A stretch of DNA of 64,000 bases, taken from Thermodesulfobacteriota bacterium (GTDB taxonomy: Bacteria; Desulfobacterota; UBA8473). The DNA lies in contig JBFLWQ010000016.1 of the NCBI GenBank assembly GCA_040757775.1, positions 1 through 64,000 on the forward strand, read 5' to 3'. The notes below the pieces were generated by a model. The model searched no databases. It saw only the letters and a program-made list of their open reading frames with translations, and was not told the DNA's origin. This document shows, piece by piece, positions 33,471-34,244 of this stretch; the first letter of the stretch is position 1, and each line of letters starts with the position of its first letter. Made by a program: the position numbers and the translations under genes.

Positions 33471-34244
33471 ATGCCTGAGGATAATAAAATAAAGATATTA
33501 GCGTTTGCCTGCACCTGGTGAGGCTACGGAGCTGCTGACTTCGCCGGTGTGGCGAGGATGCAATATTCTCCCGATATCCGTACCATACGGGTCATGTGTA
33601 CGGGAAGAATCGATCCTTTTATGATCCTCGATGCCTTCCTTTGTCGGGTTGATGGTGTCCTCATCCTGGGTTGTAAGGATGGTGAATGCCATTACGTTAC
33701 AGGGAACATGGAGGCTAAAAACAAGATAGATATGACAGGCCGCTTGCTGAAAATCATCGGTATTGACCAGAATAGAATCCAGTTTGGGCAATTGTCCTCT
33801 GCCGAGGGGGCTCGTTTTGTTGAATTGGTGGAGAACTTTACCAGAAGGATAAAAGAAATAGTTAATTTGGAAACCGAGATAAAAGAGGGTAAGGAAGAGT
33901 TGAAGTTCAGGCTTGAGGCGGCAAAGGCAGCGGTTGAGGGTGGAAAGCTGAGATGGATTATTGGGAAAAAGACAGAATTCATGGCTATAGGAAACAAATA
34001 TGGGGAGACGTTTACCCGACATGAGATAGACAGGCTTTTAGATGGGGTAATCATGGATGAAGTTGTGGTAAGGGAGATACAGTTACTATTGCAAGAAATG
34101 CCGTTGTCGGTTAAACAGATTTCGGAAAGGCTGAAGATACCTTCTAACAGGGTTTTGAGGTACATAGCTGGTTTGAGGAGAAAGGGTGTTGTGGGGCTGG
34201 AGAGAGTAGATGGAACCTCTCCATTATATGGTTTGCAGGAATGA
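33471..34244 (+). CDS. MvhD-like selenoprotein with C-terminal helix-turn-helix (MvhD-2)
   Basis: ATG at 33471; the frame contains one TGA (33519-33521) and is then open to 34244. Read as selenocysteine, the start is [19 protein letters not shown], aligning with [15 protein letters not shown] of MvhD-1, so Sec17 replaces Cys. A strong SECIS-like hairpin follows (33539-33557). Residues 1-130 are the MvhD domain (VMCTGRI, GCKDGECHY). After a charged linker (130-165), a C-terminal region ends MPLSVKQISERLKIPSNRVL with YIAGLRRKGVVGLERV, a winged-helix DNA-binding fold. 257 residues against about 140 for MvhD-1. Sec in MvhD homologues (VhuD) is known in methanogens. Confidence 0.88.
33539..33557 (+). 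promoter_or_regulatory. SECIS-like hairpin of MvhD-2
   Basis: CTTCGCC (33539-33545) pairs along its length with GGCGAGG (33551-33557), one pair being U-G, around loop GGTGT. The loop starts 24 nt after the TGA, and begins with GG, as in bacterial SECIS elements. All of it lies within coding sequence. Confidence 0.75.

Follow-up and report, generated by a model that had tools for sequence, protein, structure and literature searches.

A predicted selenoprotein gene of the MvhD family, cut short by standard annotation, in a nuo operon of a Thermodesulfobacteriota bacterium

The gene mvhD-2, a member of the FlpD/FrhD/MvhD family, almost certainly encodes a genuine bacterial selenoprotein, judging from sequence conservation and from the selenocysteine machinery of the genome. 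It lies in a 64,000-nucleotide stretch of DNA (hereafter the window; contig JBFLWQ010000016.1 of assembly GCA_040757775.1), and when translated with read-through its frame runs from the ATG at 33471 through an in-frame TGA at 33519-33521 to a stop TGA at 34242-34244. A mechanical ORF caller starts at the GTG at 33549, and the CxxU motif is thereby lost; the reading proposed here restores a gene truncated by standard annotation at its redox motif. The first-pass annotation, made from the letters of the window, had anticipated both points. Its selenocysteine at residue 17 with an accompanying SECIS element is upheld by the TGA of orthologues, the Sec genes, selection on the N-terminal codons and conservation of the hairpin, and its warning about automatic callers is confirmed by the mechanical call.

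33471..34244, + strand: mvhD-2, a 257-aa FlpD/MvhD protein with Sec17, a C-terminal helical segment and a winged helix
33519..33521, + strand: UGA codon for selenocysteine 17 (CxxU; second Cys of the CNWC motif)
33549..34244, + strand: truncated ORF from GTG, given by the standard caller in place of mvhD-2
33861..34241, + strand: C-terminal extension of MvhD-2 (residues 131-257), ending in an ArsR/TrmB-like winged helix

The UGA codon of mvhD-2

The FlpD domain (PF02662) covers residues 9-130 of MvhD-2 unbroken (E=1.7e-44; 151.2 bits against a gathering cut-off of 22.3), and thus the UGA falls within a domain that extends beyond it in both directions. The TGA is retained in three orthologues from the same genus (90% identity) and in one from the same family (78%); the scan of named genomes supplied three near relatives only, and the match in genome G001 begins only at residue 94. 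More distant Sec homologues occur across the phylum at 34-48% identity, alongside alternatives with Cys or with Sec at Cys68, and many of the sequences compared are related by descent, so that counts among them are not independent. In the Cys homologues a Cys aligns with the in-frame UGA, and C14, C/U17, C43, C68 and C73 are invariant in the family alignment. The counterpart motif of MvhD-1, which had been matched to the UGA region, is indeed present in the ORF at 28854-29291.

The genome (3.1 Mb, in contigs, 100% complete by the tool's estimate) encodes the whole selenocysteine apparatus: a search recovered selA (641 bits), selB (357 bits), tRNA-Sec (77 bits) and selD, the last with an in-frame UGA of its own and hence encoding a Sec-containing SelD. 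Lack of these genes had been named at the outset as an observation that would speak against selenocysteine. In SelD (L020, G000:C15:71406-72332, - strand) the motif is GAGU, and a stable hairpin follows the UGA. The same genome holds a further Sec-MvhD (L003, G000:C24:13558-13923) with the motif CHYU and a further Sec-HdrA (L004, G000:C19) with the motif DCSIU, the latter within an HdrA-MvhD fusion.

If the TGA were a real stop, a short peptide would end at codon 16 and a separate protein would start at the GTG; a long ORF does begin there, and mvhD-2 as a whole normally ends at a UGA too (34242). However, codons 1-26, which precede the GTG, show dN of ~0.03-0.07 and dS of ~0.4-1.4 in three comparisons (dN/dS ~0.05-0.08), which indicates that the part upstream of the GTG is translated and under protein-level constraint like the rest of mvhD-2. 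This strong purifying selection, the requirement of the FlpD domain for residues 9-26, the presence of the Sec genes and the alternation of TGA with Cys among homologues make a real stop very improbable. A sequencing or assembly error for TGC, TGT or TGG might be suspected in a genome that is in contigs and whose calls rest on the assembly, but the same TGA stands in independent genomes, among them three near relatives deposited publicly under the labels Deltaproteobacteria or Desulfobacterales (QZJR01000083.1, PFIF01000239.1 and JACQWO010000084.1). The TGC or TGT that the first-pass annotation had named as a refuting outcome is not seen in these independent assemblies, which retain TGA, and we regard the probability of such an error as negligible. 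Just as remote is a recoding of UGA to another residue, for example Trp (code 4), which the open frame taken by itself would fit: Cys homologues have Cys at the residue, tRNA-Sec and SelB are present, and mvhD-2 itself terminates at UGA. All three alternatives (termination, sequencing error and Trp) were accordingly rejected, on the grounds of selection, independent assemblies, Cys homologues and Sec machinery, and we retain the reading of the UGA as selenocysteine 17.

The hairpin downstream of the UGA

33539..33557, + strand: bacterial SECIS-type hairpin, stem CUUCGCC/GGCGAGG, loop GGUGU, 24 nt after the UGA

The hairpin pairs 33539-33545 with 33551-33557 (seven pairs, including one U-G) around a loop at 33546-33550, and the stem, loop and correct distance that had been proposed for it are borne out. 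Evolutionary evidence for this element is much stronger than the evidence from folding energy. Across 12 distant Sec homologues, synonymous identity at codons 24-29 averages 0.87, against 0.41 at 85 other codons, and is the highest of any six-codon stretch examined in the Sec genes; in 11 Cys homologues the value for the same codons is 0.33. Synonymous sites that are frozen over the SECIS in Sec genes only offer a clean way to verify such cases. The complete core of four pairs (33540-33543 with 33553-33556) is retained in 16 of the 17 Sec genes and in none of the 12 non-Sec genes, counts that shared descent makes non-independent, and distant Sec homologues carry CUGG-CUGGAGUUU-CCAG at the position of the hairpin. 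One stem pair exhibits a G-C/C-G exchange, and the covariation score of 0.234 exceeds both the shuffled value of 0.135 (0/500 shuffles as high) and all slid controls.

A five-pair covariance model trained on the Sec genes scores 33519 at 60.8 bits and Cys homologues at ~26 bits at most, and its hits at other places in the window are no better than E=0.69; since the window sequence belongs to the training set, the 60.8 bits show consistency and do not amount to an independent discovery. Arg29 is encoded by AGR in 17/17 Sec genes versus 2/12 non-Sec genes, and at the remaining Arg positions of the distant Sec genes AGR accounts for roughly one codon in two; we set this bias aside as main evidence because the genome prefers AGR. 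Taken alone, the thermodynamic tests are weak evidence. The hairpin is more stable than most synonymous recodings (P ~0.002-0.04, varying with the stretch folded), the majority of homologous hairpins are not stabler than theirs, and no Rfam family matches near the hairpin at E<=1. Of the earlier description of the hairpin as strong, what stands is therefore its conservation; its fold energy, with a z-score of only -1.0 against dinucleotide shuffles, does not bear the word out. By folding, retention of the stem, synonymous conservation and covariation, mvhD-2 has, a short distance past the UGA, a hairpin whose loop contains G and which is conserved alongside Sec.

Partners, operon and proposed role

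23046..25701, + strand: nuoA (118-aa ORF, named by inspection), nuoB, nuoC, nuoD
25770..26855, + strand: HdrC/TfrB-like iron-sulfur protein (CCG1)
26875..28848, + strand: hdrA-1, Cys-containing HdrA
28854..29291, + strand: mvhD-1, 145-aa Cys paralogue
29288..30439, + strand: second HdrC/TfrB-like iron-sulfur protein (CCG2)
30436..31764, + strand: hdrA-2 (N-terminal half of a split HdrA), selenoprotein, U62 in DCAIU
30619..30621, + strand: UGA codon for Sec62 of HdrA-2
31742..33445, + strand: hdrA-3 (second part of the split HdrA), directly before the long mvhD
34210..35919, + strand: GltD/HdrA-like FAD-NAD(P) oxidoreductase
35926..36810, + strand: HdrA-fragment/ferredoxin-like protein
36803..44359, + strand: nuoH, I, J, K, L, M, N

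The structure model of MvhD-2 (pLDDT 87.1) has the MvhD/ElpC fold in residues 1-130, with TM-scores by target length of 0.95 to 8rvu_F, 0.92 to 5odc_D and 0.91 to 7bkb_F. The end of the protein resembles the ArsR-type winged helices of CzrA, SmtB and HlyU over ~59 residues (rmsd 1.1-1.3 A) at an E-value of only ~5e-3, and members of the long-MvhD family match HTH_5 (ArsR) down to 2.7e-9. The fused winged helix is present throughout the long-MvhD subfamily; a description of such a fusion was not found in open-licence papers. Docking seems to us its most likely role.

By gene order, hdrA genes adjoin the long mvhD in all contexts fetched, hdrA-2 and hdrA-3 preceding it in 20/20; in one context (L078) the long mvhD carries MvhD1 as its best-hit label. 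Folding of 30619-30668 gave no convincing hairpin after the HdrA-2 UGA (z +0.76), and Sec62 thus rests on conservation. HdrA-2 is a Sec form in the window and in G002, G004, G006, G005, G110, G108, G045, G096, G024, G028 and G116, and a Cys form next to Sec-MvhD in G102, G040, G088 and G031 (modules L071, L075, L077 and L078). Where the long MvhD is all-Cys (G086, G115, G011, G014 and G080) HdrA is also Cys, and no Sec-HdrA-2 was seen beside an all-Cys long MvhD among the modules sampled; Sec in HdrA-2 is thus seen only beside Sec in MvhD. In the sampled set, a long MvhD that contains Sec has it either at residue 17 or in place of Cys68 (GC to GU), never at both. Sec at Cys68 of GCxxGxC, in place of CxxU, occurs in L006 (G000:C6:7106-7474, - strand), L039, L041, L043, L045, L049, L064 and L065, and the short MvhD paralogues of the genome itself use both positions (CxxU on contig C24, GU on C6). 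This alternation and the coupling to Sec-HdrA-2 point to residues that may matter in the electron step from MvhD to HdrA.

As the first-pass annotation had noted, the operon contains two Sec codons, TGA 30619-30621 (HdrA-2, DCAIU) and 33519-33521 (MvhD-2), each in a gene with a Cys paralogue (HdrA-1 and MvhD-1). The idea drawn from this pairing, that the second set is the faster redox copy, is not supported. A second Hdr/MvhD set that is a selenoprotein-bearing but merely faster duplicate would fit the Cys in HdrA-1 and MvhD-1 where HdrA-2 and MvhD-2 have Sec. Nevertheless, MvhD-1 (145 aa) and MvhD-2 (257 aa, with the winged helix) differ in length, neighbours and partners, and in the tree, the deepest fork of which is weak, they are not recent sister copies. 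Furthermore, the MvhD-1 counterparts in G108 and G110 carry Sec at Cys68, and all-Cys long modules exist too. Given the divergence of the paralogues and this Sec68, a difference in speed is a guess, and we consider the faster-duplicate reading improbable. For the function of the pair an equally open rival is the suggestion made for Desulfobacterium autotrophicum that Cys copies may take over when selenium is limiting (PMC2702500).

The operon begins with nuoA-B-C-D, CCG1, hdrA-1, mvhD-1, CCG2, hdrA-2 (Sec), hdrA-3 and mvhD-2 (Sec) and continues with the gltD-like gene, the HdrA fragment and nuoH-I-J-K-L-M-N. No nuoE, nuoF or nuoG lies between nuoD and nuoH (window 23046-44359); NuoF-type domains are found on three other contigs of the genome. 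The combination of nuo with Hdr/MvhD recurs in G002 and G004, and its nuoBCD side also in G006. A promoter and terminator scan was uninformative, and no description of a nuo-hdr operon of this type was found in open-licence papers. In our scheme, the hairpin that closely follows the UGA would recruit SelB and tRNA-Sec, and these would insert Sec17, as conservation and the machinery suggest. In solved complexes the [2Fe-2S] cluster of MvhD lies near the bifurcating FAD of HdrA, the onward step being ascribed to "an unknown mechanism" (PMC12350162); by analogy with these structures, MvhD-2 would transfer electrons through a [2Fe-2S] cluster: docked on the flavoprotein formed by the split HdrA-2/HdrA-3 pair, it would donate electrons to the FAD of that flavoprotein or accept them from it. 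Synteny makes a link of the module to complex I plausible, and within an operon that in this bacterial family is without nuoEFG the module may form the electron-input side. That in this family a selenium-dependent Hdr-MvhD module takes the place of NuoEFG as the arm through which electrons enter complex I, with the winged helix docking and the selenocysteines of HdrA-2 and MvhD-2 as part of the electron path, is a tentative proposal that we think rather unlikely. Some bacteria are described as having a Nuo of 11 subunits for which no electron donor is known (e.g., PMC12142623, PMC4911364), and for bacteria whose complex I lacks NuoEFG the operon suggests one candidate donor.

Comparison with known systems

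Sec-FrhD (MvhD) and Sec-HdrA of deltaproteobacteria were catalogued in 2006 (PMC1794560), and four Sec-mvhD and two Sec-hdrA genes were reported from D. autotrophicum in 2009 (PMC2702500). Because Sec-MvhD beside Sec-HdrA has been known in this group since 2006-2009, MvhD-2 is a new example of a known selenoprotein family. Like Sec-FrhD/MvhD of Syntrophobacter fumaroxidans and Syntrophus (PMC1794560) and mvhD1/2/3/5 of D. autotrophicum (PMC2702500), it is a FlpD-family subunit with a UGA-encoded Sec, and with these systems it shares a Sec-HdrA in the same genome or cluster, the Sec system and the reported tandem hdrA-hdrA. In contrast to them, the cluster described here lies inside a nuo operon and is without frhA/frhG hydrogenase genes. 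The long winged-helix form is described here for MvhD-2. Desulfococcus multivorans likewise has UGA-containing mvhD (dmul_C28840/50) and hdrA (dmul_C02770/80) genes, each under two locus tags (PMC5109826), which looks like the same annotation problem; the comparison covers the UGA codons, the locus tags and the operon, which differs.

VhuD of Methanococcus belongs to the same family and has the CxxU motif, the one listed for that family (PMC13188914), and selenoprotein forms of its HdrA partner also exist (PMC2933860). MvhD-2 is related to VhuD and is not filed as VhuD (120 bits vs 215), and the archaeal SECIS is in the 3' UTR whereas the bacterial one is in the coding sequence. The solved archaeal relatives have ~130-140 aa, against the 257 aa of MvhD-2, and are without a winged helix. 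To MvhD/ElpC of the solved Hdr complexes 5odc, 7bkb and 8rvu, MvhD-2 is similar in both fold and sequence over residues 1-130 (41-47% identity), although the three aligned sequences have Cys at position 17 and are without the C-terminal domain.
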